DNA from: Bisporella sp. PMI_857
Lineage: Eukaryota > Ascomycota > Leotiomycetes > Helotiales > Helotiaceae
Reading direction: 5' to 3'
Assembly: GCA_021307315.1 (NCBI GenBank)
Contig: JAJSPD010000090.1
Location: 1 to 64,000 of the forward strand
Length of the DNA stretch: 64,000 nt
Shown here piece after piece: positions 36,633 through 64,000 of this stretch (the stretch's first letter is position 1; every line of letters begins with the position of its first letter). The notes below the pieces were generated by a model. It worked only from the letters and a program-made list of their open reading frames with translations, was not told the origin of the DNA and made no database searches. The position numbers were made by a program, and so were the translations under genes.

Positions 36633-37995
36633 CCCGGGAGCGGTGGCGAGTTCCGCAGTTCCCGCTGAGCGATTCGTGTGGCCCTCCGCATGTGACACAC
36701 TTTGGTATTACTGCTTGACATTCACTGTGATGGTGTCCTACTTGAGCACACTTGGCACAGACTTGCGGTTGCGTGCATGAGTACGCCTTGTGCCCGATTT
36801 CCTGGCATCGATAGCATTTCTGTGGACCATATCGCGGCTCGAAGACCCTGGTGTAGGCCGACTCTCCTGCGACATGGAAATATTGGTCTTGTAGCAGTCG
36901 TGCTGCTTCGCTGCCTTTGGTGACGTAAACAACCATTGAACCATAAGCTTTCCCCGCGTCTTTCCTGCTGAGCCACCCGATCTTGGCTATGTGGACCCCG
37001 TTTTCCTCCCCAAGGACTTCGGCGGCGCCAGGTAAAACATTTCCGTCGTGATCAAGTATAGTTGTTCGATTGACATTGTCCACCTTGACCGGGTACAATT
37101 GGTCTCGCAGCACTCGGACTCCCTCGGCCGCAGTTTTCTGGACGGCTTCCTTGACCCGTTGGAGTTCAGCTTCGTCTCTGCATACAATCTTGATGCGTTC
37201 CGTGTTCCTGGCGTCTCTGATCACCGCAGCGCAGCGCCAATTTGCTTGTCCTTCCACGGTGCGAATCTCCTCCTCAATTGCCTTCCGAACTGCCCCAGGT
37301 TGTGCCTTGCTTCTCTCTCCCTCCCCAACTCTGGACGTGTCAACCGTGCAGTACAGCGTATCGGTCATTGTTGACGGTGTGGTGCGCAGGGAGGAGAGGG
37401 TTCGTACATTGCTGGGTAAGCTGTCTGGTGGCGTTCGGGCGACTTCTGCATACGATGGGGATGGGCTTGACGGTGCTTGGGCATTGGACAGCTGGGTCTG
37501 AATCTTTTCCGTCATCTCTGTAACCTCTGCCTTAAGCTCTGCCTTAAGCTCTGCCTTAAGTGTTTCTATCTGCTCCGTGAAGGTCCGCGTTATGGTTTTC
37601 ATCTGGGTCACGTGCTCCTTCTTCTGTTCCTCCATTGCTTTCAACAGCGACTTGACCAAGTCAGTGAGCACTTTGATCTGCATATTTACGCTTGCATTCG
37701 CTTTTTCGTGTACCGGCTGGTTCGGGGTCGCTGCCGCTGTTGCAGGACGTTCTCCAGCCTTCGCGGCGAGGGCCTTAACCTTCGTCGCTACACTTTGCTC
37801 CTTGGGATGCGCGCCGATCCCCGTTCGTCTAGTTTGCAATGGAATGGGAGCTTCCTCAATTACTTCAATCGTGTCCTCTATATCGCTTGACACCGCTCTA
37901 GATCTTCTCTTGGTCCATTCTGATGCCTTCGACGTCTGGACGCGTTCCCGGCTCGACTGACGCGTCACGGCCTCCATGTTCTCCTTCCTCCACAC
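36625..37995 (-). CDS. LINE ORF1: gag-like RNA-binding protein, 456 aa
   Basis: The ATG is at 37995. The first 100 residues are basic and Ser-rich. A coiled coil follows (about residues 110-165) and includes a perfect triplet repeat of ELKA encoded by a 12-bp DNA repeat (about 37527-37562). The C-terminus has three zinc knuckles: CYRCQEIGHKAYSC, CAKCAQVGHHHSEC and CVTCGGPHESLSGNC. Such proteins coat element RNA and form the ribonucleoprotein with ORF2. The stop at 36625-36627 overlaps the ORF2 start, suggesting termination-reinitiation. The frame is intact. Confidence 0.88.
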   Translation of the reverse strand: MWRKENMEAVTRQSSRERVQTSKASEWTKRRSRAVSSDIEDTIEVIEEAPIPLQTRRTGIGAHPKEQSVATKVKALAAKAGERPATAAATPNQPVHEKANASVNMQIKVLTDLVKSLLKAMEEQKKEHVTQMKTITRTFTEQIETLKAELKAELKAEVTEMTEKIQTQLSNAQAPSSPSPSYAEVARTPPDSLPSNVRTLSSLRTTPSTMTDTLYCTVDTSRVGEGERSKAQPGAVRKAIEEEIRTVEGQANWRCAAVIRDARNTERIKIVCRDEAELQRVKEAVQKTAAEGVRVLRDQLYPVKVDNVNRTTILDHDGNVLPGAAEVLGEENGVHIAKIGWLSRKDAGKAYGSMVVYVTKGSEAARLLQDQYFHVAGESAYTRVFEPRYGPQKCYRCQEIGHKAYSCTQPQVCAKCAQVGHHHSECQAVIPKCVTCGGPHESLSGNCGTRHRSRDA

Positions 37996-38082
37996 AACTA
38001 CTGATTCTCACTAATTTGATTGCTGGCTGACTTGATTGCTGGCTGCCTTCAAAGGCAATTCTATGGTAATTGTTCTTACATT

Positions 38083-43438: not shown

Positions 43439-44095
43439 ATTGATAGCCGTTCATACCTTTGAGTCCTTCTTCCTGGGATCTACGGATCGAGATCCCTGTT
43501 CGTCTTGAGTTGTTACACTTCTTTTATAGCAGAACAGACTTCCTTCCCTATAGCACTGCCGTTAAGCTCTTACTACTCTTCATACTTAGTTAATAATAGG
43601 GTGTTATTTAAGCCTTAGAACCTCGCTACAATGCTTGGAAGTTATTACTAGCTTTGTGCCTGCACATAATTATCACAGTATAATTTACTTACAGTGGCTG
43701 CCACGCCTCTGGCTGTCGTGTCTGTGGCTGCGTGAAGTCTTAGCAAGGGCCGACCTTAGCCCCGCAGCCTTGTGATCTAGCTCAACCTTGGCCATACCTC
43801 CACTCAACCAACTCACCTCTCATGTAAATCTGTGGGCTGGAGTGTCGTCCCGCACCTCAGACAATAACATCACATAATACATCCCGCTGCTACTTATCAT
43901 ATTATCTCACCTATCATTGTTTTGGCACATCTAGTGCGACATTATATATCACTTATAAGCATCACTGGGGCCCAGTTTCGTTTCGCTGAATGCAAGTCTG
44001 TTATTGCGGTCGATCAGCGTTTTCAATAGCAATCAGTCCCGGGCACGGACTGACCAACAATGAAATGATCGACTAACAAGTAGACCATACGCACC
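43439..44095. other. Upstream region of the HET gene
   Basis: No ORF of note. It must contain the promoter of the HET gene at 44096; no specific motif is claimed. Confidence 0.3.
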
Positions 44096-46117
44096 ATGTA
44101 TTCGCCTCTCGATCATAGTAGACGAGAGATTCGGCTCCTGCGCCTTCTGCCTGGCAACGGGGACTTCAATTCCAACATCCACTGCGAGCTATTCCCCGCC
44201 TCACTAGATAACAACCCCTCCTACAACGCCTTGTCATACGTATGGGGGGATTCATTGCCGTTGAACCACATTATGGTGAATCAGAAGACCGTTTCTGTTA
44301 GGGAAAATCTCGTGCTAGCCCTTAGAAGACTCCGCGCACACCACGCAATGAAGACGCCTCTAATCCTGTGGGTGGACGCGCTGTGCATCGACCAGAGTAA
44401 TACGAAGGAACGGGAGCTGCAGGTTAAGCTCATGAGCAGCATCTACTCTGGTTGCCAAGAGGTCTGTATCTGGCTTGGATCGTGCGGCTGCGATAAAATT
44501 CCCGGAGCATGGGGCGTCACAGACTTGTTGGACGATGAGCAGCCGTTGGCTTGCCAGGAGGGATCTCAAGAGGAACATCACCCGGTTCTGAAGGCCGACG
44601 GTGATGCTCTAGTCCTCTGCGCGCGCATTTTTGTTGCCATGGCTGCAGAAAAACATATTAACGAGATCGCGCCGTGGGCAGTTAGCGCTGAAGGCTCCTA
44701 CCAGCGAACCGTGGAGGGCATGGAGCAGCTGGCCAACAGCCCCTGGTTCACTCGTGCCTGGATAGTGCAGGAGGCGTATTTCGCTCCGAAAGCAACGGTA
44801 TACTTCGGCACCGCCGCCCTTCCAAGAGAGCTCCTTTGGGCCGCCCAGGCAAATAGGAAGGTGCTAACGACCAGCTGCGAGTGCTGTCGGACAACACCGA
44901 ATCTTGATCCACTGCTAGGCATCATGAACAAGTTTTTCGGCAACCTCGTGCGACTGATTGTAAGAGACCCAGCCCCCCCAGATGCTCCGACTACGTGGTC
45001 TAAGGAGAGACCTTTCCTCACCCTCATCGAGTTCATCACATCGAAAGACCAGCAGAATTGCACGGATAAACGCGACCGTATATACGCGTATCTCGGCATC
45101 GTGGAAGGGCTGCTCGGCAATGAACAACGGGACGCTGCCCAAGACGAGGACTCAATCGTTAACGACGACAATTCATTCCTTGTTGACTATAGCATTGAGC
45201 CACAGAAGCTGTTTCTGCGACTCTGCAAGGCTGCCGTGCTGAAGGACCGATCCCTGGCTTTCTTAGCCTGGAACACTGCCAAGAATGAATTCCCAGGCCT
45301 CCCATCCTGGGCCATGGACTTCACACAAACAAGATCGGCAGACGGAGTAGCCTGGCAACCCTGGAGCGTTCACTGGCAAAGCAGCCGTAACCTAGACTTC
45401 AACGCCGCGATTATTAACGATAAAACTCTAGTCGTCAGGGGCGCAATGGAGATTGATAAAGTCTCCACAGTCGGCCACCACATGCGAAGCTTCAAGGATG
45501 GCATATTTAACACCAAACTGTGGGAAAACTGGCGAGGGCTCGTGGGCCATCCAGATCGCCCTTATCCAGCAGGCAAGACCTACCGGCATGCCTGGTGGAG
45601 GGCGCTCTGCTTCGACAGTGCGGAAGCGGAACGCAAGCGCAGCAATCGGGACATCGCCGCCTTCGAGCTTATTTCCACCATACTGCATAAACTCGGCTTT
45701 AACTTCGATTGGGAGATCACCCCGGAGTGTCGCAAAATGTGCGACAATGGGGACCTCCCGATGAAGTTCGAGCCTGAACTGAAGTACATGTTTGAATTCG
45801 GGCTTGCCGACATGTGGGGTATCCTGCCGCATTTGTTGGGAGATCGTGGATTGATCGTGACCGAGAAGGGGTATCTCGGTTTCGCTAGGGATGGTGTGGA
45901 GGCTGCCGACGGGGTCTTCCTCCTGCCGACTTGTGCTACGCCTGTGATATTGAGGAAAACAGAGGGCAGGCTATCCGATGGAGAAATTAATGGACAGTCA
46001 CTCACTGACCAGCCCATCTACTCTTTGGTCAGTGATGCTTATATATATGGTATCATGGATGGAGAAATGGTAGAGAATGCGGAATCATCTAGTGTCCAGA
46101 TCGTATGCATTGAATGA
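44096..46117 (+). CDS. HET-domain protein, 673 aa, intact
   Basis: One open exon from the ATG at 44096. The HET domain fills about residues 40-235: YNALSYVWGD, the loop with LRALRRLRAH-like residues, LWVDALCIDQSNTKERELQVKLM and IYSGCQEVCIWLG, then WFTRAWIVQE. The C-terminal half has the usual LIEFITSKDQQNCTDKRDRIYAYLGI and ends with GLIVTEKGYLGFARDGVEAADGVFLLP, typical of this class. HET proteins trigger regulated cell death in hyphal incompatibility when partnered with a recognised allele. There is no NACHT or WD40 part in this gene. It lies next to other recognition-type genes, and no lesion is visible. Confidence 0.92.
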   Translation: MYSPLDHSRREIRLLRLLPGNGDFNSNIHCELFPASLDNNPSYNALSYVWGDSLPLNHIMVNQKTVSVRENLVLALRRLRAHHAMKTPLILWVDALCIDQSNTKERELQVKLMSSIYSGCQEVCIWLGSCGCDKIPGAWGVTDLLDDEQPLACQEGSQEEHHPVLKADGDALVLCARIFVAMAAEKHINEIAPWAVSAEGSYQRTVEGMEQLANSPWFTRAWIVQEAYFAPKATVYFGTAALPRELLWAAQANRKVLTTSCECCRTTPNLDPLLGIMNKFFGNLVRLIVRDPAPPDAPTTWSKERPFLTLIEFITSKDQQNCTDKRDRIYAYLGIVEGLLGNEQRDAAQDEDSIVNDDNSFLVDYSIEPQKLFLRLCKAAVLKDRSLAFLAWNTAKNEFPGLPSWAMDFTQTRSADGVAWQPWSVHWQSSRNLDFNAAIINDKTLVVRGAMEIDKVSTVGHHMRSFKDGIFNTKLWENWRGLVGHPDRPYPAGKTYRHAWWRALCFDSAEAERKRSNRDIAAFELISTILHKLGFNFDWEITPECRKMCDNGDLPMKFEPELKYMFEFGLADMWGILPHLLGDRGLIVTEKGYLGFARDGVEAADGVFLLPTCATPVILRKTEGRLSDGEINGQSLTDQPIYSLVSDAYIYGIMDGEMVENAESSSVQIVCIE

Positions 46118-46189
46118 TAAATCCAGATAGGTTAGTACGGATCTTTCGCGCCTACTAGATTGTGTCTTAGGTTTTCGACAGTTCATCAA

Positions 46190-46480
46190 ATAATCTTAAG
46201 CATCTCCGGCTTCTTCTCTTGCCGCAACAAAGCTTCTCCGTCCATGATCTCATGCACATAACAATCGCTAACCAACTGGAACTTCTTGCCTCAAGGCACC
46301 TGAAGCGGAGCAAACGGAACATGCGCGCCGTGAAGACGCCGATGGTATCGCCCCTTTAACATCCTCTCGGCAATATCCCACTATACGCCCTTGGCGGTTG
46401 ATGTCGCTAAAGCGGCCCAATAGGTAGCAAAAACTTTGTTTCCCTGAGGCCCGCCATACATTGCAAGTTTGCCACTTGAG
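46190..46480 (-). pseudogene. Remnant of a HET-type protein C-terminus
   Basis: The minus strand reads FATYWAAL near 46430 and, in a continuous frame, KKFQLVSDCYVHEIMDGEAL (about 46300-46240), a motif common at the end of fungal HET proteins. A stop precedes it. It lies tail-to-tail with the intact HET gene and may derive from an older copy. Confidence 0.4.
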
Positions 46481-46991
46481 CCTTACCGGGAGCAGACAAA
46501 CACCTTGATCACGCTAGCAGGGAGGATGGCCGACCCGCTCCGGCCATAGGGTTATGAGGCGGCGAGTCTATAGGAGGTACCGATAGGCGTACAGTAGTTG
46601 GTGACAACTGCCGCCGGCGACCCGGTTTGGGACCCGTTGTATCGTCGGCCGAGACTCACTCTCTTTATGGAAGATATTCTGGGTTGATAAACATACTAAT
46701 ACTAGTTATATTCGGATTCTTCAGAGTCCTCAGCCACCCACTGGTCGGTGGAGAGGGACATAAGGGCTGCAAAGAAAGTTAGACGGCTTTGTTCTCTTGA
46801 GCAATGTGCGAGTGCAGTACGCTACCTCTAGTTTTGCAAGAAGGTACATCTCTGAAGCCATATCTGGGATTGGAAATGGGACATGAATAAAGGAGTCGAA
46901 ACTTAGCAAGTCAAGAATCTCGCATGCCAAAGAGAGTGATCTCCCGAACGGACCGTTCAAGAGATTATTAAAATACAGCCGTCTAATAATG

Positions 46992-47066
46992 AGGGATTGT
47001 TGAACGGTATATAAGGCGCAGTAGTAGCTCGGCAAGAAGCATGTGCTTTTGCCGTTTGACAGATAT
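46992..47066 (-). repeat. Short dispersed repeat, probable LTR fragment (copy 2)
   Basis: Pairs with 40283-40356. It shares GGCAAGAAGCATGTGCTTTT and a TATA-like stretch. No retroelement genes are attached here, so it may be part of a solo LTR. Confidence 0.45.
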
Positions 47067-47459
47067 AACCTGCTATTTAGCCGAAGATTATAAATATCGC
47101 GGAGCAATACACAGCTCCCTTTCCACTAGGAAAACCAAATTGGGCCCTGTCTTCCTATTGAAATATAACTAGATAAAACAAGAATCGAGCAGCTACGGGT
47201 CCGACATCATTGCTATGACCATCCAGACGCTGCTGGCAGGTCCAAAATAGATGGCCACCATCTTTAGGCTACTAGTGGAGTGGAGTGACTAGGTGCAGAA
47301 GCAGGGGGCAGAAGGCAGAGACTGAATACCCACGATTAAAGTAACGGAATTTTCTTGAAGAAAATTGGCCTTTCACTTTTCGATATCAATAGTCAGACCA
47401 AGATCATGTAGCAAGAGTACGAATACTGTACATAATTGTAATTCTATCCATTTCTCCAT

Positions 47460-49601
47460 TCAGATCTTCCTATCATACGTCGGTCCCGTCACTACAGACC
47501 ACATTCTCACGGTCCAGTCGCTCGAACCCGACGCCAGATGCCTACCATCGGGAGAAAAGGCAACGGAACGGACGGGTGAGCTGTGCCCGTTATACCTGCC
47601 GATTTGCTTTCCCGTTATCGAGTCCCATAGCCTTACTGTCCCGTCGCTTGAAGCGGACGCCAACTGTTTGCTATCTGGAGAAAAGCTAATGGCGCCAATA
47701 CACTGATCATATGCTTCAAGCTGCTGGATCTGCTGGCCTGTCATTATATCCCATAATCGTATCGTTTGTCGCTCGAACCAGAGGCCAGCCGCAGGCCGTC
47801 TGGAGAGAAGGAAATAGTACGGACATGATTATTATGCCCTTCATATCGCTGAGACTGCTCCCCAGTCTCTGTGACCCACAGCCTAATCGACCTATCGAAC
47901 GACGTAGATGCCAGCTGCTTGTCGTCAGGTGAGAAGGACACGGCGCGTACGTGGTCTTCGTGTCCTTCGAGCTGCCCTGTCTGCTCTCCCGTTGCTGTGT
48001 TCCATAACTTAACTACCCGATCGCTCGCCGACACCAACTGCTGGCCATTAGGGGAAAATGCAACATCATTAACCTTGTCAATATGTCCCTCAAACTGCTG
48101 AACCTGCTCTCCTATAGCTGAATTCCACAGCCTAACTGTTTGATCGCTTGACGCTGAGGCTACTAATTTATTGTTAGGAGAGAAGGCCACGGGCGCTAAT
48201 ATACTGGTTGTGCCGGTCGAACTGCCAGATTTGCTGTCCCGTAGTTGTGTCCCATAGCCTGACCGTCCGATCATTGGACGCCGACGCTAGCTGATCGCCG
48301 TTCGGGGCAAAGGCGATCGGGTTCACCCAGCCGCAGTGTCCTTCAAGGACAACTCCATCGGCGGAACCCAACCTGGACTGATATTCGAAAGCATTTCTGT
48401 ATTTCGAGAAGGGTGCCGTTGATTGGCTAGATGACTCACTATTAATCCTCCTACTAATCACTTTCGTGAGTCTTTCCAAAGCTGGCGATCTTCCTTCGCC
48501 ATAGAGTAGCGGCATACAGACATCCAAAATACCCAGGAGACAGTAAGCAGAATCTTCTTCGCGTGTAGTTTCGCGATCATATGCCCACGATAATCGCTCC
48601 CGAATGCCAAATTGGGATAAAGAAGCTCCTCGAAGCGCCAAAACATCAATTCTGGTCGCCTCGTGAACTTTTGTTTCTAGACATGTCCTGTCACCGATAC
48701 GATTACCTTCTCAGGAAAAGAATTCGACCGACCGAGGAGCAAGGAGCTCTTGAAGTGTCCAGCCTCGTTTGGACTATCTGCTTGGCCGAAAAGCTGGTTC
48801 GCAAGGCAGCAGGCCGACCTTATCGTGGGCTCGCATGGCGGGCTGGGAACATCTGTGAGATAAACATAGCATTTGGCTGCGTTGTGGTACCACCGAAACA
48901 TGGAATTGATAGCGTCGGCAACCTCGGTGCGAGAGTATTTGCCGATGCAACAACTATCCACCCAGAAGCATTGTAACTCATCTCTAGCGGCTTGTTCCCC
49001 GCAGAATTTGATCTTCTCGAACCCAGCCTTGCCTTGGTTAGAACCTTCGGCCATGTCTTGAATGGTGACCTCTTCGTTCTCATCCCCCCATGTATGCAAG
49101 AGAATGGCATATCGAGGGATCTCACTGTCGAGGAATTTTCTGGTTAGGCAGATGTCCCCATCTGGTTGAAGTTCTAAGAGACGCATTGTCACTCGAGGTG
49201 GTGTCGAATCAGGAACTATAGTTTGCCACTTACTCTCCTTGCGCGGCTCCCAGAGCTGAGTCGATATCATTCGTAATGACTTACGCACTCCTCTTGCATA
49301 TAAGAAGAGCTTGTTTCCTGTATGTAGAAAACTTCAGAGATCAATCAATCGTTCATTGCATACTTTGTGAACTCCCTGAATCGATATTTTGGAACGCTGC
49401 TGCAAAGCCCGGATTCAGGATGATATTATTTTTTGCTCCGAATAACACCGTCTCCAGGGTGCCCAGCTCAGTCATAAATTCTCTGACATTGTCTGGTGCG
49501 TCCTTCCAATTCAACCGAAATTCGATTACTACTTGGGTGATCTGAAGGGATAGATCAAGAACCCCAACGATTCCGGCTCCGATTCCAAAAGGGTCTGCCA
49601 T
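47460..49601 (-). pseudogene. HET-WD40 protein without NACHT domain, frameshifted
   Basis: The ATG at 49601 starts a short helical N-terminus (DPFGIGAGIVGVLDLSLQITQ). The HET domain follows (49190-48790: LLELQPDGDICLTRKF, RYAILLHTWGDENEEVT, CFWVDSCCIGK, MFRWYHNAAKCYVYL) with its usual end (48640-48490: SQFGIRERLSWAYDRETTREEDSAYCLLGI). Directly after it seven WD40 repeats are legible (48330-47480), enough for a complete propeller. No P-loop or NACHT sequence lies between HET and WD40, unlike HET-E/HET-D. Frames change near 48680, near 48210 and at 47744 (a one-base loss in an A-run). It would have been a non-self-recognition receptor; this copy is broken. Confidence 0.75.
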
Positions 49602-50057
49602 AGCGTAATGGGGATCTGTGTCTTTAGGGAAACTATCGATAGGCTTTGTCCTACGGCTAATTTTCTTTTTGACGATAAGTACTAAATGTAGGACTCTGGC
49701 ATGGAGCTCTAAAAACCTCTATCAATCATGCTTTGAAAATGTGCGAGGTTCTTCAAAAGAAAAGAACCAGAAGGACGAAGGTTGACAAGATAGGTTTTGA
49801 TCATCGCCTGATCCATGTCATACTTGCATAAGATGCTTTGTTATCATTCGGAGACGCGTACAATATTGATTGCAGCATTGTTGGACTATGTTACCGTATT
49901 GTATCGTTCAGCACAGTGCCATACTATTCCTAGATCTGCGACCGCAATATCTGCGGCTCCACGCTCGCATAAGCATTGCCCTCAAGAGAGCCAGCTACCT
50001 GTCTTTGACACCAATATCGACAAAAGGGTCGCGTGCGAACGCAGACAATACTACATC
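49602..50057. other. Intergenic or transposon flank
   Basis: An ORF open from 49815 runs into the transposase frame, but upstream of 50058 its translation does not look like transposase. The end of the mariner element is probably here; I could not find its terminal repeat. Confidence 0.3.
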
Positions 50058-50870
50058 ATGGCTCCAAATCTCGCAGGCTCGCAACATGCGCAGATTCGTG
50101 ACATGATCCTTGCCAGACGTCCCATTGCTGAAATAGCTAATGTTGTTGGTTGCAGTGAACGTTCCGTCTATACGATAAAGTCAAACCTTCGTGTTTATGG
50201 CTCCACTAAAGCTCCCAATAACGGCGCCGGACGGTCTCGGAGCATTATGCCTCCGACGTTGGATGCTCTGTGTGAATACTTGCAGGAGAAGCCTGGTTTA
50301 TGTCGGGATGGAATGGTGCCTTTTCTGTTAGGCGTGTTTGGCGTCCAAGTAATACCCTCCAGTGTAAGCAGGGCGTTGAGAGCTCGCGATTGGGCCAAGA
50401 AAACGATTCGCCGTATAGCAAAAGCACGAAATGCTGATCTGCGAGACTTGTACTTACATAATTTGTGGGAGTCGGACTTCCGTTCGTATCACTATGTCTT
50501 CGGGATGAGTCTGGATGTGACCAACGGAGTGGATATCGACGGACGGGATGGGCTCCTCTTGGTGTGACTCCAGCCCAAATTGCCCACTTTCAACGTAAGA
50601 AGCGATATCAAATATTGCCAGCACATACAAAGGACGGCATTATCCTTGCTCGAGACTTCCAGGGATCTACAGACAGTGCAGTCGATGCAGAATTCATAGA
50701 GCAGCCCCTGCCTTTAATGAGGAAATGGCCTGGACCGAAATCGGTTCTTGCCGTGGGTAAGGCTTCTTTTCATCATACAGAACGAATCGAGCAAATGTGC
50801 TGCATTATTCCATATAAGAAGAAAATATTTGGGAGCCATAACAACACGAACTCTATTAAACTTTACTGGT
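50058..50870 (+). pseudogene. Tc1/mariner-like transposase remnant
   Basis: From the ATG at 50058 a helix-turn-helix region is clear (RPIAEIANVVGCSERSVYTIKSNL), then the second DNA-binding part (PGLCRDGMVPFLLGVFGV, SSVSRALRARDWAKKTIRR). Near 50490 the frame shifts just before the first catalytic Asp motif; ESGCDQRSGYRRTGWAP is legible in another frame, followed by QILPAHTKDGIILARDFQGSTD and SVLAVGKASFHHTERIEQMC, where the second Asp of the DDE site is lost. The last catalytic block (YSPDLNPIE in relatives) is absent. The enzyme would cut and paste the element at TA sites; this copy is inactive. Confidence 0.7.
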
Positions 50871-50994
50871 AAGGGGGGCCTACTCTCACGGGATAGCTCG
50901 GTGCGCGGTTAGCCAAAAACTGGCTAGCAGACCCCCTAAAACAGCGGCTTAACACCCCCGAAAACAGCAGCTTGTTAACCGTGACACCGTATAA

Positions 50995-51600
50995 TCTAGA
51001 AATAATCTTTCCGGTATACGTCCTCGATCTCGGTCCTTAAGCTTTTCTTCGTATTCGTAAGCTGCTTGCGAAGGTCTCCATGCTCTTTTCGCTTCTCCTT
51101 TAGCGCTTGCTTGATGAACTTGTATTCCTACTTAATCTCGGTATATGAAGTCTTGAATCTTTGCTCGAGGTCCACAATAGCAGGATCTGCTGCGAAAAGG
51201 CACTCCATTACTCTATTGAATACTTTCTTTGGAGCGCCTGAGTTGCAGCGAATACTCGTGTGTGCGAAAGCCCGGGTAAACTTATTATTAGAGACATTAC
51301 TCTCTAGGAAAGCGTTTTGCACGTTAAACCTGATAACATGGTTGATATACGCTCCGTTAAAGACTCCGGCGAAAGGATCGTGTCTCATATCCCGATCACG
51401 TACGGCATCTGGAGCAATACCTAAAAGAGCCATTGGCATCGAAACGCAAGTAAGAGCTAAATAAAATACATACCGTTGATCGTAAGTCATCAGCTTGTCC
51501 TCGAAGCCCGTCTCTTTCCCAAGACGATCAATGGGTAAGCAATAGATCGAGTAAGTCATAGGTTCAGTGTCTTTAATACCAATAAGAAGGGTCTGCAGCT
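50995..51600 (-). pseudogene. DUF3435 tyrosine-recombinase (Starship-captain/Crypton-type) C-terminal remnant
   Basis: The minus strand gives MTYSIYCLPIDRLGKETGFEDKL-type sequence (about 51560), then TYDQRY, RDRDMRHDPFAGVFNGAYI, RFNVQNAFLE, TRAFAHTSIRCNSGAP and an end region EYKFIKQALKEKR and RTEIEDVYRKDYF (to 50995). This order matches DUF3435 proteins, now known as tyrosine recombinases of Starship elements and relatives. A TAG at 51130-51128 interrupts the frame, and the segment after TYDQR is rearranged. The N-terminal half is missing; the sequence runs into the WD40 gene instead. Captains move very large cargo-carrying elements. I see only this fragment, with no element ends. Confidence 0.65.
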
Positions 51601-51690
51601 GTAAGAACAGTGCGGTCCCCACGCCTATAAATGACCCGATCAGGCCATAGGCCCTGATTACGCCAGCTCGCCGGAGAAGGGAATGGCGCA

Positions 51691-52928
51691 ACTAACTTGA
51701 TTTGATTGGTATGGCCTTCTATCCTTAGCACACTATGCCCTTTGTCATCTATTGCTGCCTTCGGTGGCCTAATACCAACTAACAATCTCCCTTTTGCAAC
51801 ATCCCAGACCAGTACCGTCTTATCGTACGAAGCCGATGCAAGCCAGCGGTTATTGGGCGAGAATGCGACCGACTCGACCCCATCGGTATGGCCTTTAAGC
51901 ATCTGCTGAAGTTTGCCCGTCGCTACATCCCAGATCCGTACCGTCTTATCGCGCGAAGCCGATGCAAGTCGGCCACCGCTAGGCGAGAATGCAACTGACA
52001 TGACCCTATCGGTATGGCCTTCGAGCGTCTGCTGAAGTTTACCCGTCGCCGCATCCCAGATCCGTACCGTCTTATCGTGCGAAGCTGATGCAAGTCGGCT
52101 CCCGTCAGATGAGAATGCGACTGACTCGACCCAACGGGTATGCCCCTCTAGCGTCTGCTGAAGTTCCCCCGTCGTCGCATCCCAGACTCGTACCGTCTTA
52201 TCGTACGAAGCCGATGCAAGCTGGCGGTTATTGGGCGAGAATGCGACTGACTCGACCCCATCGGTATGGCCTTTAAGCGTCTGCTGAAGTTCCCCCGTCG
52301 CCGCATCCCAGATCCGTACCGTCTTATCGTGCGAAGCTGATGCAAGTCGGCTGCCGTCAGACGAGAACGCGACTGACTCGACCCAACGAGTATGCCCCTC
52401 GAGCGTCTGCTGAAGTTCCCCCGTCACCGCATCCCAGACCCGTATCGTCTCATCGTGCGAAGCCGATACAAGTCGGCTACCGTTAGGTGAGAATACGACT
52501 GACATAACCCTATCGGTATGGCCTTCGAGCGTCTGCTGAAGTTCACCCGTCGCCGCATCCCAGATCCGTATTGTCTCATCGCACGACGCTGATGCAAGTT
52601 GGCTACTATCAGGCGAAAAAGTGACTGACGGGACAGGACCGGTGTGTCCGCAGAACGTCTGTTGTGATACCTCTGTTGCTGCATCCCACGCTCCCAGAGC
52701 ATTTTCAGGGTCGATTTTGCCGCAAGTATTCCTTACCTGGTTTGTAGTATTGTTGTTACAGGGTGCAATAGTCGCCGCAGTTTGTCGTGACACATCTGGC
52801 GAGGGCGTGACATCGACTGCAGGCCTGGGGGTGACTGTGGAGTCGTAAGCTTTCTTCAGCTTTAAGCTAGGTCGAAGCTTGTTTCTAAGCCGACTAAGCC
52901 TTTTCTTCAGTTTAGATTCTCTCCACAT
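51691..52928 (-). CDS. WD40-repeat protein (NLR-type) with seven near-identical repeats, no NACHT
   Basis: The ATG at 52928 begins a basic NLR-like N-terminus (RESKLKKRLSRLRNKLRPSL) and a Pro/Thr linker. Seven 42-residue WD40 repeats follow (about 52640-51750), each with GHT..V.SV.FS and D.T(I/V)R(I/V)WD. DNA units of 126 bp are so alike that duplication or gene conversion is recent; for example repeats 3 and 5 are almost identical, as are 4 and 7. Variation sits mainly at positions after GHT and around ASASxD, as in HNWD receptors of Podospora. No nucleotide-binding domain is present. The frame continues past 51691 into unrelated sequence and stops at 51573, so the true C-terminus is unclear. 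It may be an effector-less fragment of an HNWD-type gene. Confidence 0.7.
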
Positions 52929-53149
52929 GACATCGCACTTTCACTGATCAGTAACAGACTATTGATATCAACTGAGTATCTGAATTGGGGATGTTCAGCA
53001 GTGACGAGGGCCTGTAGCCCAGCACCTATGATCACGTAGACAGAATCCGCAAAGCGCACCCCCGCAAGCCATTTTTTACGCATCAACATCAGCAGACCAC
53101 TTCCATTCGTCCCGGAATCCTCGTCATGTATGGACATCGGAAGGCACAT
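52907..53149 (-). pseudogene. Possible NLR N-terminal exon fragment
   Basis: A minus-strand ORF just upstream of the WD40 gene reads FADSVYVIIGAGLQALVTAEHPQ, a helical piece that could be the lost region between an NLR N-terminus and NACHT domain. It is out of frame with, and partly overlaps, the WD40 ORF start. Evidence is weak. Confidence 0.2.
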
Positions 53150-56945: not shown

Positions 56946-57701
56946 CTAGTACAATTTCTTCACCGCTCTAAGTTCATAAAGCTCCTTACTTGACCGACAA
57001 TACCGCAAATCTCCATATCCGTTAATAAATGTCTGCGCAGTACCATTGGGCCATGTACCTGCACGCTCAAATGTACCATCTGCAGCACAAAGAACAGCCT
57101 TCTTAAAGTCAGAAATAAGTGCCTAAGGATTTAGCGTTGTTGAGATACCTGTCTAAGAAAATGCAGACAATGTGGCCAGTGAGTATTGTCTCTCTGGTCC
57201 AACCCAATTTCCTTTCTCTCCCTAGCATCTTGTAAGGCTTTACGTATTGCGGCTAGACAATGAAGTTGATGGAACCTTACAAGAAGTTAGTATAGAACCC
57301 TCATCTATTAACATTTAATTCTACGACTATGAATTCAAAGTATTAACAAAATCAACTTGCATTGTTATCTGAACAACATGTTTGTTTTCGTCAAATATGA
57401 GAGCCGATTGTCCCGTCTCATTCCACAAATGATCATACACGTGGTCCAAGGACATATATGCGGTGTCTCGATGCCATCTCGTCTCTATAATATCCGCTCC
57501 TTGTGAGGCTGACTTCCTTGCGCAAATCGGAATCATGGACCAAAATCGTATAATGAAGATAAATTGAATAATCAAAAAGACAATCGTCAACGCTTGTGTA
57601 AACGTAAGCATTCGGCTTTTGCAAGCAGAATCGAAATTTGTATTTTGTTTTTCTGCATCCACATCGTCTTTGAGATCTTGCACTACATGCTCATAGGCCA
57701 T
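56946..57701 (-). CDS. UstYa-type (DUF3328) oxidase 1, possibly damaged at a splice site
   Basis: The ATG at 57701 gives a cytosolic start, one membrane helix (about residues 33-55: FTQALTIVFLIIQFIFIIRFW) and YMSLDHVYDHLWNETG, typical of the family. The exon ends near VVQITMQ (about 57360). After an intron with TACTAAC near 57295, exon 2 has FHQLHCLAAIRK and HWPHCLHFLRQ, the two HxxHC motifs. An intron (GTATCT..TTTAAG, about 57164-57115) leads to exon 3 with LCAADGTFER and NGYGDLRYC, ending at 56946. UstYa proteins are membrane-bound oxidases that crosslink or modify RiPP core peptides. The first splice junction does not keep frame with standard GT/AG sites, so a small lesion or a non-obvious site must be checked. 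Confidence 0.75.
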
Positions 57702-58588
57702 GACTCTCTTAGCCAAAGTTGGAAGTTCATGAAAGTCTACATAGCATCACCGTTCAAGATTTTGGCAAAAGACGCAGTGAGACTAGGTAAGGGGTGGCGG
57801 GATTAGGAAAAGCGTCATAAGACTCTAGACTAAGCAATTGTTTATGCTCAGGCGCATGCTGACAGGTGGCAATCCACCCCACTATATGGGTAAGCGAGCA
57901 TTAGGGCGTAAGAGAGCGTAAACGAGCTCAATAGCGTAATTACCCTCTTTTACTTGCCCTCTAAAGCGTCATTTACCCTTGGCGCTTATGGAATGGCATC
58001 AACATAGACAAATGCGAGATGGTTAGCGTAGGAGGATACCCTCCGATGTTGTCACTTCCCTTTGATGCTGGGTATCGTATCTACTCTTCGCTTATACATG
58101 GCAGGCGGTTCCCATTTCAAGAATCGCAGCACGATGCACAATAGTTGAGCACTTTTTATACTAACATTAATTAGAGGGACAGGTAAACGAAGGAAATCGT
58201 CTATTGGACCTAGCTACGTATATCGATGCTAGGCCCTGATTAACCAAGAGATAATGATCATCTTTATAGAAGAGTTTTCGTTCTTCAACTGTTGTGAGAG
58301 TGTCTGAATAGCGAAATATGGACTCGAATTCACATAGTTCTCACGACATACAGCGCAGGTGGAAAGCAAGAACAAGCTCTTGGGAGCCATAGATTTAGTA
58401 ATAACCAACCAAAATTTTTACAATTTGTCTTTTCTGCGGTGATCACAACTCTAATCGTTGATTTGTAGAATCAAAAAAGAAGTAAGAGGGTTAGAGAGCC
58501 TGCCTTTGAGATGGATAGCCCATCAGGACTCTCATTATTCTTGCTGTTCTATTGCTATCCTTCAGGCTCGAAAACTTAGTGGTATAGT
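57702..58588. other. Intergenic between UstYa-type genes 1 and 2
   Basis: No convincing gene. Around 57895-57970 short motifs (AGCGTAA, AGCGT) recur in both orientations, perhaps a degenerate repeat. Confidence 0.3.
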
Positions 58589-59726
58589 TTATGGGATAGT
58601 GCTAGGCTTAATAGATTCATCCCAGTCGCCAATATCATGTTCTGGTCGCATTGCCCATTCCGTAAGCGCGTCGTAGTCTATCGTCGAATTAGTATTGTAT
58701 ATAACTGGGATTTTTAAGGGGCTTTGGTGCTCTGAAACTTTGGAACTTTTTGGAGGGTAAGTGAACAAAATATATATATTAGCACGCCGCTCCTGAAACA
58801 GCCCCAAAGCTCTGGATTTTTCATATAGAATAATGGCAATTGAGTATGGGGATGTCCCTTACCTCTACAGGTGTGTGGCACACCCAATGATCCCAATGCC
58901 TTTCCCATGGACTCTACCCACTCATAAGGAACCGGCGTTATGTCAGCGCCGCACATGATAGTCTGGCGTAGTGAGTCAAAGCAGTGGTCGATGTGGTGCG
59001 GCGCGAGAACTGCATTGTTGATTATTGGATTCTTATCCATATTATCGGTGTGGCCATAGTAGAGATGGCGGATGGAATCCAAGCAATGTAACTCGTGGAA
59101 AACGCTGATGAGTACGGGGAAGTGATCTTCGTCACCGGCGATGGGAAGTGTTTTGTTGACTAACTGGTCGGCTGAGGACTTGGGAATACGCACCACTGTC
59201 CGCGGGTAGAGATTAAACCAGGCTTCGTCCGCAGCGGCGGAGTTACCCATGTATTTGGTCTTCTGGTCGCCGAAACCACTGGAGAATAGTACTGACTTAT
59301 AACGGATCGCGTCCTGGGCCGGGGCTAGAGGGTTTGACAGGCTCGTTAGCATCACTACCAGCAACAAAACATATTTATGTCCCTCATCCGTCAGGAAGAC
59401 CGCATCATGAATTCTCGGGAACAGGTGGGGTTTACACTCAGAAACAAGCAAATCAAGGACTTACAGTACAGTGACTGAGGGAAAATAGGGTTTGATGGAC
59501 CGCGATGTGAATACCTATAGGCAATGAAGCCTAACACTGATAGATTTAGAAGACCCGAGCACGTGAGCAAGGTGCTCATAATAATCTTATATCTCCATGA
59601 GGCAGAAGAAGGCAGTGGACGTCTCTTCTGACTGAGGAAGCCTTCGCCTTCTTCACCGTCCAAGCCATCTTCAGAAAACGCAGAAGTGGCCTTTTCATAG
59701 GCGAAGTCGCTGCGAAAGTTAACCAT
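58589..59726 (-). CDS. UstYa-type (DUF3328) oxidase 2, intact, 270 aa
   Basis: Three exons keep frame: 59726-59465, 59324-58863 and 58677-58589; introns have GTAAGT..TCTAG and GTAAGG..GATAG ends. The N-terminus is cytosolic with LPSSASWRYK, then one membrane helix (about residues 48-70). The lumenal part begins SPAQDAIRYKSVLF, the family's usual post-helix segment, and includes DEAWFNLYPRTVVRI, FHELHC (first HxxHC) and HHIDHCFDSLRQTIMCGADITP (second HxxHC). The end reads YDALTEWAMRPEHDIGDW. The His/Cys pairs are thought to bind metal. The gene is transcribed away from the precursor at 60323, with about 600 bp between their starts, so a shared promoter is likely. No lesion is seen. Confidence 0.92.
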
Positions 59727-60322
59727 CTCGTCGTTAGCGAGATTTGTTAGAGAGTGGTGGTCAGTAGAAGAAGTGTTTAATAGGAGATAGGGGTTTCCTT
59801 CATGTTACAAGTGCAAGGTCGAAGAAGAGTGTCTCAATATAGAATGACCGACTAAGATTGGGTATCAGTGGAGTGGGAAACCTGTTGAGTCTAAGGTGTT
59901 ACAGTTGGTGAGATATTCTTCTGAGGCTGTGGAAGAGTCCGTCTTGCTGATCACACTTACTTTCCCCTTACCTCGTGCAGCCATCTTTTATGGCCCACAA
60001 TAAGCATGCATAATGGGGTTTGATTATACTAAAAGCGCTAGTGTCGAATGGAACGTTGAACCTATCCCGGGACTTCTGGTTGTAATTTTTTTTTCTTGGT
60101 CACGTTCATTTTGCGAGATATCACCACAGCCGTAAGGGTAGTATTAAAGGCCGCACAAGCCAACCTGGCTCTTGATTCTAACTGCAAATTGTTCATACTC
60201 CGGTCAGATACCTACACGAGACAAAAGCCAATAACACCAAAGCCATCGAGATTACAGATCTGGTAGCTGTTTGTGCCTTTCCAGTATCTGTCTTTCCGTT
60301 GCTGATATCCTTCTTAGTAAAC
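59727..60322. promoter_or_regulatory. Divergent promoter region, UstYa-type 2 and RiPP precursor
   Basis: About 600 bp between two divergent starts with no ORF of note. Co-regulation is inferred from position; no binding site is claimed. Confidence 0.4.
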
Positions 60323-60729
60323 ATGAAGCTCTCGACTTATATCCTAGCAACGATAAGCTTGTCTACGTCGGTTTTGGCCGCTCCCATGATTATGGGGAGA
60401 TCCCCAGACATTAAAGTGAGATGTTTTAGCTTATTCTGCTGAAAGGTTAAGTGCTAATACACATATACAGGCCCGCTCTCCGCAGGGCTCATTTATCTGG
60501 TTATGGTATGGAGAGGATGCTGACCCTACCGCTGAGTCCACAGAGACCACTGTGGTTGAAAAAAGATCCACAGACATAAAGGTGAGATACTCTAACTTAT
60601 GCCGCCGCGAGATCAAGTACTAACACACATACACAGGCCCGCTCTCCACAAGGCTCATTCATCTGGTTATGGTACGGGGAGGATGCTGACCCTACCGCTG
60701 AGTCTACCGAGGGCGAGTCCACTGCTTAA
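60323..60729 (+). CDS. RiPP precursor with two repeated Trp/Tyr-rich core peptides, 98 aa
   Basis: Three exons keep frame: 60323-60415, 60471-60581 and 60637-60729. Exon 1 encodes a signal peptide (MKLSTYILATISLSTSVLA) and a short leader ending SPDIK. Exons 2 and 3 each start with ARSPQG and carry SFIWLWYGEDADP followed by TAESTE; the repeats are identical over 25 residues. Between them, VVEKR gives a Kex2-type Lys-Arg site, and STDIK before repeat 2 mirrors SPDIK before repeat 1. Both introns are 55 bp and similar in sequence, so exon and intron were duplicated together. Secreted precursors with repeated cores next to UstYa-type genes define dikaritin-like fungal RiPPs; the aromatic residues would be the crosslinking partners. 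The core is unlike ustiloxin, phomopsin or asperipin cores as I know them. Function is inferred. Confidence 0.85.
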
Positions 60730-62181
60730 GAAGTTGAAACATGCCACCTTCCTTCTGGTGATGATATGTGACGGATACTGCTCGCTCTTTGTTATCAAGT
60801 CCCGGCAAACGTTAATTCTTAGGAAATGGGGGCATTTGCTTATCATCACTGACGTGCCCGAGCAGCCCTGAGGAGGCATTGATCACACTGTCTTTTCGCT
60901 CTTGGTCTGGTGCAGCACGTCAGAAGGGGTGTATGCGGAACGATGGTTGACATGCGGTTCGTTGAATGGGACAGATTGTGATGACAAGCGTTCGACTGCA
61001 AGACTTGTTTTCTCGTTATTTGCATTCTTATTACTTCAGTACTCATTAATTCCGCTCTTGTTTGCTCTCTCTCTATGTTATGTAGAGCAATGTCACTTTT
61101 GTTTTCTCCACCCTTGCCAGTAAAACTGATTGACTTAACAATGTAGGCTAGCTGGCCAGCTATCCTGTAAGTGCTGATCAGTTAGCCTAGTATATGTAAA
61201 GTACTTGTGAAGTAGTATAAATTGTATTATAAGAAAAACATTCCTATATTATTAAATACTTTTGCTAACTATTATATAAAAGATAGGTGAATTTGTAACA
61301 TATTGCTTAAATAAGCATATATGAGTTGTGTAGATTCAATTTATATAATTTATGTCGAAGGATTCATGTGGCATAAAATTAGTCATGATTTATTCTCATA
61401 TCTAGTTTCGTTAGGGAAGATTAAGTAATTATATTGTAACGTTCCAAAAATCTGTGATTATATAGCAATAATTATAATAATTTATTATTTCAAGTAAACT
61501 GTACGTGATGACGCTATTAAAAATTTTTTAACTGAGTAGCAGTTCTTGGCAAACCGACTTATTTGGAATTTTATGCATGAGCAGACTCTTTCTTAGTCGA
61601 CAACTCATGTCCATTCTGCAAAGTATTATGTGTGACCGCATGGTCTTCTCAGAAAGTTTTCAATCCTCAGCATCCACGAGTACGACAAGAGGTTTGCATA
61701 AGTGGGATCAAACTACCCCTCAGATCCGATTTGCTGTCCTTCAGAAGTACAAGAACTTTGATCATCCTCTAATCCCCTTTAGCGAGCTCACTGCATATGC
61801 GGGCTTACTGCATTTTCGCATGATAGTGGATAGAAAATTTAGTGTTTCTAGAAAGTAGACGACCAGGGTGAATATGTACGTAACCTACGTAGCACCTTTT
61901 AATGGCATTTAGCGTTCCTCCGTCCGACGTGGCGTCAAAATCCTCCCCACACAATCGGATTTGATGTCAATGTCACCCGCCTGGGGCATTGTGTTAATCC
62001 GCGGTATAGTATTCAGCTAGAACAGTGCAACCCCACTTCTTACCCGTCAATGGTTGATCTATGCCACGAGGTGGTTACTAGAATTCGATCTAGAATTCGA
62101 TCTAGAGGCGTCTCCATTCTTTTAAGAGACTTGCTGGCTCATACCCTCTACCTTGAGTCATTCTAAGGTTGTGGATGCAAG
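60730..62181. other. 1.45 kb without a clear gene
   Basis: AT-rich, especially 61140-61560. One ORF at 61577-61858 (93 codons, plus strand, with WDQTTPQIRFAVLQKY and FSELTAYAGLLHF) looks protein-like but matches nothing I know; it could be an unrecognised exon or cluster gene. A 14-base direct repeat, GAATTCGATCTAGA, occurs at 62080-62106. Confidence 0.3.
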
Positions 62182-63244
62182 ATGCGGCATTCGCAAGCAA
62201 TATACCAAACGGCCGAGCTGGACGCAGCCGAAGAGGGTCTCCTACAGAGCGAAAAATCTGACGGAGCATTTGTTTTGAAGACAGAGCCAAATCTTGATCG
62301 ATATAGGCGTAGCTGGCTCCGCCTGAATTGGAGTTGGATCCTCCAGTCGGTCATGTTGGTGTGCTCTTCGACACTTTTCATCCTATGTTGGTATGGCGAG
62401 CCATCAGATGCGACATGTACACGGAAATTGTTTCCATACTGTCAGTCAAATTCACCTAGCCAAGCTGGGAGGCGGCAGTCTGATATATATCCGTTCCTCG
62501 CTGACTAGTTGTTTGAACAGCACCAGCACTAGCGGCCGTCACGTATCACGAGGAGACGCTACTAGGCGCCTTTTTACAACCTTCACCCTACCGTGGAACG
62601 CCCACGCCTGAGATCGACTCTCGCTGGGAGGATATCTGGGATTGGGGTGCATTCAACATCGCAGATGACAAGATTCACCTCTTGAACAAATCTAGGTCTG
62701 TGAAGTGGCATCATACAGACCCAGAATTCGGTGGGGGTGTAGCAGCGCTTTCCTGGGGCTTCCATCAGATCCATTGCCTGGTAAGGTGTTCCGTGGAGAC
62801 ACAACGACTATCCTAGTGGAATTCTCAGACTCATGGAGTTCACTACAGGACCTCCTTCGCCAAATGACGTACAAAGAAGAATACGAACTAGCTGGGCGAC
62901 TGCCTGCGATTCTCCGCGTTGAGGAAGGACTACGCCGGGACCACTTGGGTGAGTCTTTCATCACCCATTCTGGCTCGGCGTTATGAATGCAAAAAACAAC
63001 CAGTTCCCTAATATCTATAGATCACTGCATTGAGCTGATCCGTATTGATATGATGTGTCAAGCCGATGTGACACCGTATTTTATAGTAGAAGCTTCTCTA
63101 GGCGATGCGCCTGATGACCTTAACATCGATTTTTCTGTCTTCAAAAAGTGCCGAGATTTTGGAAAGATTAAAGATTGGATGAAAGATCATGTCGCTATAG
63201 AGAGCGTCAGGGATAGTCAACTTCATAGTCATGGTCGCGTGTAA
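62182..63244 (+). CDS. UstYa-type (DUF3328) oxidase 3, intact, 280 aa
   Basis: Four exons keep frame: 62182-62440, 62521-62780, 62849-62948 and 63021-63244. The start gives a cytosolic tail with TAELDAAEEGLLQ, then one membrane helix (SWILQSVMLVCSSTLFILCWY). Exon 2 begins SPALAAVTYHEETLLGAF and has RWEDIWDWGAFNI, DPEFGGGVAALSWGFHQIHC (first HxxHC). Exon 3 ends and exon 4 begins in the second HxxHC, HLDHCIELIRIDMMCQADVTP, so the motif is split by an intron. The C-terminus reads RDFGKIKDWMKDH. The role is presumably a second oxidation or a different crosslink on the core peptide made at 60323. Splice sites are standard, except that the first donor is GTCAGT. Confidence 0.9.
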
Positions 63245-63505
63245 CTTCGCGGAGTTAGTCTAGAACAATATAGGAAACATATTATGTCGTAGCTAGTCAT
63301 ACTGAGGGGTTCACAAGCCAGATTCTACATCTATGTAAAATAGCTGACTAATCTAGTTAAGAATTCTGTTAAGAATGCAAAGAGACAAAACAGGTTTTGG
63401 CAAGCTGGTAAAGCTTGTTCATTCAGCTATGTTAGGTGAACTAAGAACTCGAAAAGCGCAGATCTTAAGCCCGATACTAAATACAATTTTGACCCAGTTC
63501 ACTAG
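63245..63505. other. Short convergent intergenic region
   Basis: Separates the 3' ends of UstYa-type genes 3 and 4. No feature is seen. Confidence 0.3.
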
Positions 63506-64000
63506 TTATCGCTGTTCGAGCACCAACTTCTCTTGAGGGTAGAATTGAGCTTTACGGGAATTTTGCCAGTCTTTGATTAAACTGTGGTTGCGGCACTGCT
63601 TCGTTACATTGAACTCTGGTTGGAACACGTTGTACTCCTCGATTAACTTCACCGTCGCAACTCCAACATCTGCGTAGCAGAGAAGCGTTTGATACAGATA
63701 GCTAAAGCAGTGATCGGCGTGTTTTGCAAGACTAAAAGTTTCAGTGTGACTATCACTAAAGTATGACTTTCGAAGATAGTTCTAAATGCAGTTTGATTAG
63801 CTAAAGCATTAAACATGCGGGTTCCAGAGAGAAGCAGCTCACTAGGCAATGCAATTGATGGAACATTTCAATTGATACTGCGTAGCCGTTTTGTTCTCCG
63901 TATGCTCTTGCAGTGTCTCGCCCGCCAGGGAGGTTCTTCTTCTCTTCTTCAGTTATAACAATGATAATATTTTCGATTGGGTCAGCCCAAACAGAGTCTA
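63506..64000 (-). CDS. UstYa-type (DUF3328) oxidase 4, partial at window edge
   Basis: The 5' part lies beyond base 64000. The first visible exon (64000-63843) reads DSVWADPIENIIIVITEEE and ends in EMFHQLHCL, the first HxxHC motif, followed by a donor GTGAGC at 63842. The last exon has KHADHCFSYLYQTLLCYADVGVAT, the second HxxHC, then CRNHSLIKDWQNSRKA and ends at 63508-63506. Relatives usually have about 25 residues between the two motifs; the corresponding exon is not readable here between about 63840 and 63735, so either it is short and missed or this copy is damaged. It is the fourth member of the cluster, and its presence suggests the cluster continues to the right. Confidence 0.75.

Follow-up and report, generated by a model that had tools for sequence, protein, structure and literature searches.

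A candidate dikaritin-type peptide locus with three recurring UstYa genes on contig C275 of Bisporella sp. PMI_857

The first 64,000 bases of contig C275 (167,723 bp), from the 55.6-Mb, 284-contig genome of Bisporella sp. PMI_857, are referred to here as the window. Near their right end, a small gene for a repeat-bearing precursor with a predicted signal peptide is surrounded by genes of the UstYa type (PF11807, DUF3328), which raises the question of whether these genes form a pathway for a ribosomally synthesized and post-translationally modified peptide (RiPP) and which of the oxidases belong to it. The locus very probably encodes a dikaritin-type RiPP pathway that is built on three oxidases, named B, C and D, with no tyrosinase on the contig. 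Because this enzyme set recurs in distant fungi, the pathway can probably be added, as a new member, to a family of ring-peptide pathways already known from fungi. Feature positions are collected in Table 1.

All 98 residues of the predicted precursor agree with B0O99DRAFT_747326, annotated in Bisporella sp. PMI_857 as a hypothetical protein, and the splicing predicted for 60323–60729 is that chosen independently in the public annotation. A preliminary description of the window, which had proposed both this splicing and a secreted precursor with two Trp/Tyr-rich copies and a Lys-Arg site, was borne out on these points, the signal peptide being a prediction. The hydrophobic, signal-like N-terminus is followed by APMIMGRSPDIK, ARSPQGSFIWLWYGEDADPTAESTE, TTVVEKRSTDIK, ARSPQGSFIWLWYGEDADPTAESTE and GESTA. 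The repeat ARSPQGSFIWLWYGEDADPTAESTE is present in two identical copies of 25 residues, each holding two Trp and one Tyr, with a single KR in between. The duplicated DNA unit takes in an intron (148-base repeat, 166-base spacing, 84% identity), a feature missed previously; the literature passages searched contained no mention of introns within repeats.

Over the 25 codons shared by the two copies, seven synonymous and no non-synonymous differences were counted (17.0 synonymous and 58.0 non-synonymous sites), a pattern expected by chance at about 3e-5 (5e-5 by simulation, 1 of 20,000 runs). The precursor introns 1 and 2 are of equal length and differ at 14 of 55 positions. Since the introns have diverged in this way while the copies show seven synonymous and no amino-acid changes, the repeat peptide is judged to be under selection: enough time has passed since the duplication for the DNA of the copies to diverge, yet the peptide sequence has stayed the same. 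Because this constraint covers all 25 shared residues, it does not single out SFIWLWYGEDADP, within which the preliminary description had placed the core.

Relatives of the oxidases were retrieved with protein C (16 proteins at an E-value of 1e-10 or better, itself included) and with a profile of A, B, D and E (at least 100 proteins at 1e-20). Nine other relatives of C were 50–69% identical over at least 190 residues; matches to other genes of Bisporella sp. PMI_857 itself were shorter, at 25–41% identity, the top hit by E-value reaching 33%. Among the matches listed, full-length named relatives of B were 60–75% identical and full-length relatives of D 51–69% (others down to 44%), the closest to E were five partial relatives (43–53%), and none had A as its best match at 38% or more. 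The hosts of the B, C and D relatives belong to the Eurotiomycetes, Sordariomycetes and Dothideomycetes. Nine JGI or other environmental-type protein clusters (P0039–P0043, P0045, P0048, P0050 and P0051) comprise fragments 72–84% identical to B; by their sequences, close relatives beyond the named species carry a B-like gene.

With the length of the longest contig taken as a contig label, eight of the nine C relatives share a label with a relative of B or D. By this label, C and B lie on one contig in Aspergillus ibericus, Aspergillus tubingensis, Aspergillus niger, Apiospora hydei, Lophiotrema nucula, Pyrenochaeta sp. and on a contig of 191,043 bases, where the identity to the Metarhizium robertsii genes is 97% for B and 92% for C; C and D lie on one contig in Apiospora aurea. 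Locus numbers are 014139 (D), 014140 (C) and 014142 (B) in Apiospora hydei and 010580 (C) and 010582 (B) in Aspergillus tubingensis. Because the Bisporella precursor sits between B and C, in the order B, precursor, C, D, the number skipped in both species may, by analogy, belong to a precursor gene. The earlier suggestion of four oxidases for one core did not hold in that form, as the relatives show B, C and D recurring together and A without a listed best match at 38% or more; whether A belongs to the pathway is uncertain.

Pairwise identities were correlated between the genes (B–C, r = 0.90 for 36 pairs from nine genomes; B–D, 0.79 for 10 pairs; C–D, 0.65 for 15 pairs), although the pairs are non-independent, some sequences are fragments and common descent alone gives some correlation. 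At all three genes, Apiospora hydei resembled Aspergillus ibericus more closely than it did Metarhizium robertsii (73/63, 74/62 and 63/54), a closeness that presumably runs against their classes; transfer of the genes as a block would explain it, and so would the loss of old paralogous clusters. The Metarhizium robertsii tags MAA_06597 to MAA_06600 were not found in the literature searched, and no publication on the B-C-D module was found by title or abstract on UstYa in Aspergillus niger, Metarhizium RiPP/DUF3328 or Bisporella. The module may be among the Aspergillus types reportedly distinguished by Nagano in 2016.

A plausible course of the pathway begins with the signal peptide, which would route the precursor into the secretory pathway. 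Cleavage by Kex2 at the single Lys-Arg would then yield two pieces with one W-L-W-Y-containing repeat each. B, C and D, which would each be held in the membrane by a single helix at the N-terminus, would oxidise side chains of the aromatic stretch by cross-linking and perhaps desaturation, so that each may add an oxidative change on S-F-I-W-L-W-Y-G. The computed [M+H]+ values of the linear peptides are 984.498 for FIWLWYG, 1071.530 for SFIWLWYG and 1598.716 for SFIWLWYGEDADP, and every cross-link or desaturation would take 2.016 off these masses. The ends may be trimmed by peptidases, possibly including the TAP-like hydrolase listed in Table 1, after which the product would be secreted; A, E and F could have some role in the pathway. 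In the structure model of B (pLDDT 76.7), a single N-terminal helix (44–73) fits a membrane anchor and the HxxHC motifs sit in two further helices (161–176 and 196–212), a predicted architecture consistent with a lumen-facing enzyme. A copper-dependent DUF3328 macrocyclase was reportedly described in 2025. Ring closure in ustiloxin and asperipin-2a is the work of UstYa proteins, and desaturation in phomopsin depends on them (PMC10512285, PMC6514808), and Kex2 is speculated to cut ahead of UstYa action in the ustiloxin pathway (PMC6514808).

By the genomic definition, a dikaritin cluster combines a DUF3328/UstYa gene near a precursor, an N-terminal signal peptide on the latter, and at least one tandem repeat of at least 10 residues with kexin sites between (PMC9632046); all three features were found at C275, the signal peptide by hydropathy and cleavage pattern. 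As a compound, a dikaritin carries an ether cross-link from Tyr to another side chain (PMC11253845); each C275 repeat copy has one Tyr, and the assignment as dikaritin-type is made from the genes alone. Precursors of Kex2-processed repeat peptides (KEPs) in the sense of Umemura 2020 contain a minimum of three repeats, each 8 or more residues long and set between dibasic sites (PMC7329392). Because it has two repeats and one dibasic site, the C275 precursor was not filed as a strict KEP. The EDYxI motif that marks ustiloxin and phomopsin repeats (PMC6339444) does not occur in ARSPQGSFIWLWYGEDADPTAESTE, and no tyrosinase match was obtained for the contig, which places the locus outside the ustiloxin/phomopsin group.

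Among characterised systems, the asperipin-2a cluster of Aspergillus flavus (aprA, aprY, aprT and aprR) resembles C275 in its repeat precursor, aromatic core (FYYTGY), UstYa-type oxidase and lack of a tyrosinase among its four genes (PMC6514808). It has one UstYa, whereas C275 has three to five; its core contains three Tyr and no Trp, while a C275 copy has two Trp and a single Tyr; and it includes a reductase and a transporter, neither of which was recognised at C275 (9 of 698 candidates for the major facilitator superfamily scored). The ustiloxin and phomopsin clusters share with C275 a secreted, Kex2-cut repeat precursor and contain two (ustiloxin) or five (phomopsin) UstYa genes (PMC7329392), but they have a tyrosinase and EDYxI-type cores (PMC7329392, PMC6339444), and the ustiloxin precursor comprises 16 repeats (PMC10512285) instead of two. 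Epichloecyclins (gigA) likewise involve a signal peptide, repeats, kexin sites and a UstYa-like cyclase (PMC8982410), with a different core and four repeats in the case described (PMC6514808).

A further comparison is offered by the same genome, in which 75 exon-level UstYa matches were merged into 38 loci (gaps <15 kb). The loci on C275 and on contig C101 are the richest of these, with seven matches each. At C101:660500–678000, UstYa genes adjoin a W/Y-rich repeat precursor, as at C275; tyrosinase matches lie at 661.3–662.0 and 671.2–671.8 kb, and between them a frame at 666029–666430 holds seven PSWYYDKKR copies. C101 thus differs from C275 in having tyrosinase matches on both sides and seven repeats in one open frame without introns between, as against no tyrosinase, two repeats and introns in the repeat. 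With its W-Y-Y stretch, C101 was taken to be a dikaritin-type cluster of the ordinary sort. The occurrence of a W/Y-rich repeat beside UstYa genes twice in one genome makes the proposed function of C275 more likely. At C112:933500–942999, frames bearing UstYa motifs lie about 2–3 kb from a tyrosinase match, and no repeat precursor was evident in the listed open frames (repeat scan not run there).

Several observations weigh against a dikaritin-type pathway at C275. The 36 tyrosinase (PF00264) and two S41 peptidase (PF03572) matches of the genome include none on the entire contig, so the lack of both enzymes is not an effect of the window edge, as had been supposed; past 64000, the contig holds the rest of D, E, F and the TAP-like hydrolase. 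The precursor has only two repeats and one dibasic site, under the three-repeat threshold of the published survey (PMC7329392). A protein search, which covered proteins of about 54–171 amino acids sharing 5-residue words, returned the precursor's own annotation as the sole candidate, such that the proposed search against proteins recovered the gene itself and no relative. In Metarhizium robertsii, the contig label of the C entry differs from the one shared by B and D. Finally, Trp occurs in 20.5% of repeats near DUF3328 genes versus 24.5% elsewhere (PMC7329392).

It is improbable that the repeat peptide is secreted in linear form as a signal, a pheromone or a wall peptide while the UstYa genes act on something else. 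Such a role would suit the low repeat number, and since 6120 of 7878 Kex2-repeat precursors lack a DUF3328 gene nearby (PMC7329392), precursors of this type can work without modification; however, the C275 precursor is directly flanked by B and C, and in two distant species the relatives of these two genes are separated by exactly one gene number. According to the literature, almost all pheromone-type precursors, with three exceptions, lack DUF3328 neighbours, whereas this precursor has UstYa genes on both sides and gave no pheromone (MF_alpha) Pfam match (pheromones of the filamentous type not being compared by sequence), the sole listed match being AcrF31 below cut-off (17.5 bits; cut-off 27).

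Less probable still is a role of the UstYa genes in tailoring a non-ribosomal or other metabolite, with the precursor being incidental. In cyclochlorotine clusters, hydroxylation and chlorination are further reactions of UstYa proteins (PMC12048977), and some C relatives are named 'Cyclochlorotine biosynthesis protein O'; on the other hand, the precursor repeat is under strong selection, and no synthetase was found among the long open frames (at least 150 amino acids in the window and at least 100 at 63–103 kb; twenty Pfam-scanned, the search not being exhaustive). The slightest chance is given to a decaying or silent remnant that makes no product, for which the low repeat number, the retroelement, HET gene and WD40 genes upstream and the lack of tyrosinase and S41 peptidase matches on C275 could speak, because the precursor, B, C and D have unbroken frames that match database proteins, those of A, E and F are open in the models, and the repeat shows seven synonymous to zero non-synonymous changes.

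Within the dikaritin-type pathway, a more specific proposal is that B-C-D represents a shared, tyrosinase-free machine of three UstYa proteins that was passed as a block between classes of Ascomycota and cross-links Trp and Tyr of the W-L-W-Y core, which would define a dikaritin subclass with Trp-based rings. This proposal is speculative and rather unlikely as a whole; no described dikaritin is known to be Trp-linked. Its odds are lowered slightly by the lack of Trp enrichment in the repeats close to DUF3328 genes; Tyr is found in 65.6% of these repeats versus 38.2% elsewhere (PMC7329392).

The sequences WLWYG, IWLWY and FIWLW were not found in the literature searched. The claim of an undescribed cluster thus applies to the peptide, which appears new within the searches made, and not to its kind, of which many cases are on record: DUF3328 genes are found close to 1758 of 7878 Kex2-repeat precursors (PMC7329392), and Venturia inaequalis alone has nine dikaritin clusters (PMC9632046). 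A 2022 review lists only five dikaritins reported from filamentous fungi (PMC10512285). The locus speaks to this gap between five reported dikaritins and 1758 repeat precursors beside UstYa genes, and a module that recurs across fungal classes and leaves the precursor an exactly defined place provides a testable handle on the cores and residues that the three oxidases require.

Table 1. Positions of the precursor features, UstYa genes, protein F and neighbouring hydrolase on contig C275 (window and contig numbering coincide).
Feature	Position	Strand	Basis or remark
Precursor gene (98 aa)	60323..60729	+	exons 60323-60415, 60471-60581, 60637-60729
Predicted signal peptide MKLSTYILATISLSTSVLA (19 aa)	60323..60379	+	hydropathy; V-x-A cleavage pattern by eye
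Intron 1 (55 nt)	60416..60470	+	homologous to intron 2; 14/55 bases differ
SFIWLWYGEDADP copy 1	60489..60527	+	sequence
Lys-Arg, sole dibasic (Kex2-type) site, residues 62-63	60561..60566	+	sequence
Intron 2 (55 nt)	60582..60636	+	intron comparison
SFIWLWYGEDADP copy 2	60655..60693	+	sequence
UstYa gene A (206 aa; HQLHC, HWPHC)	56946..57701	-	Pfam E 3.9e-19; model from this analysis alone
UstYa gene B (270 aa; HELHC, HIDHC)	58589..59726	-	Pfam E 1.3e-44; equals B0O99DRAFT_747325
UstYa gene C (280 aa; HQIHC, HLDHC)	62182..63244	+	Pfam E 8.3e-41; equals B0O99DRAFT_747327
UstYa gene D (HQLHC, HADHC)	63506..64455 (64464 with longer start)	-	Pfam E 9.8e-34
UstYa gene E	67895-68656, past window		Pfam PF11807 and two HxxHC motifs
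Protein F (HLGHC, HTLHC), membrane-type, Pfam-negative	70184-70846, past window		splice model
Alpha/beta hydrolase with TAP-like C-terminus	73.7-75.4 kb		sole peptidase-like neighbour found

Ten long open frames in the window and ten on its right flank were scanned against Pfam, and the structures of A, E and F are splice models from this analysis. Each of A to E gave a PF11807 match over cut-off and has two HxxHC motifs; these five UstYa genes span 56.9–68.7 kb. The four genes with two HxxHC motifs each that had been described in the window were thereby confirmed. Gene D crosses the window end, its in-window part (63506..64000) holding both motifs, and equals the own-contig protein P0018 except for three extra N-terminal residues. 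The start codon of B lies 597 bp upstream of the precursor start, and C starts 1.45 kb downstream of the precursor stop. Intron 1 of gene A is of the GC-AG type (GCAAGT donor; window 57276–57360), and a search limited to GT-AG introns yielded no model. Both this intron and the two double-HxxHC genes past the window had escaped the preliminary description.

F has both motifs and no Pfam match. It gave 11 further matches in the genome, and because four of these have a UstYa match no more than 5 kb away (chance, calculated post hoc with 38 loci and 6-kb margins, 1.4e-6), F-like proteins appear to accompany UstYa genes. Farther right on C275, a 2EXR/DUF7730 frame and NmrA, fungal transcription factor and PhyH genes were found, which were read as outside the cluster. 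To the left of the cluster, the window contains retroelement frames (32874–38007), among them a 1278-amino-acid frame (32874–36707) with endonuclease and reverse transcriptase domains, as well as a HET-domain gene and WD40-repeat frames (44084–52940).

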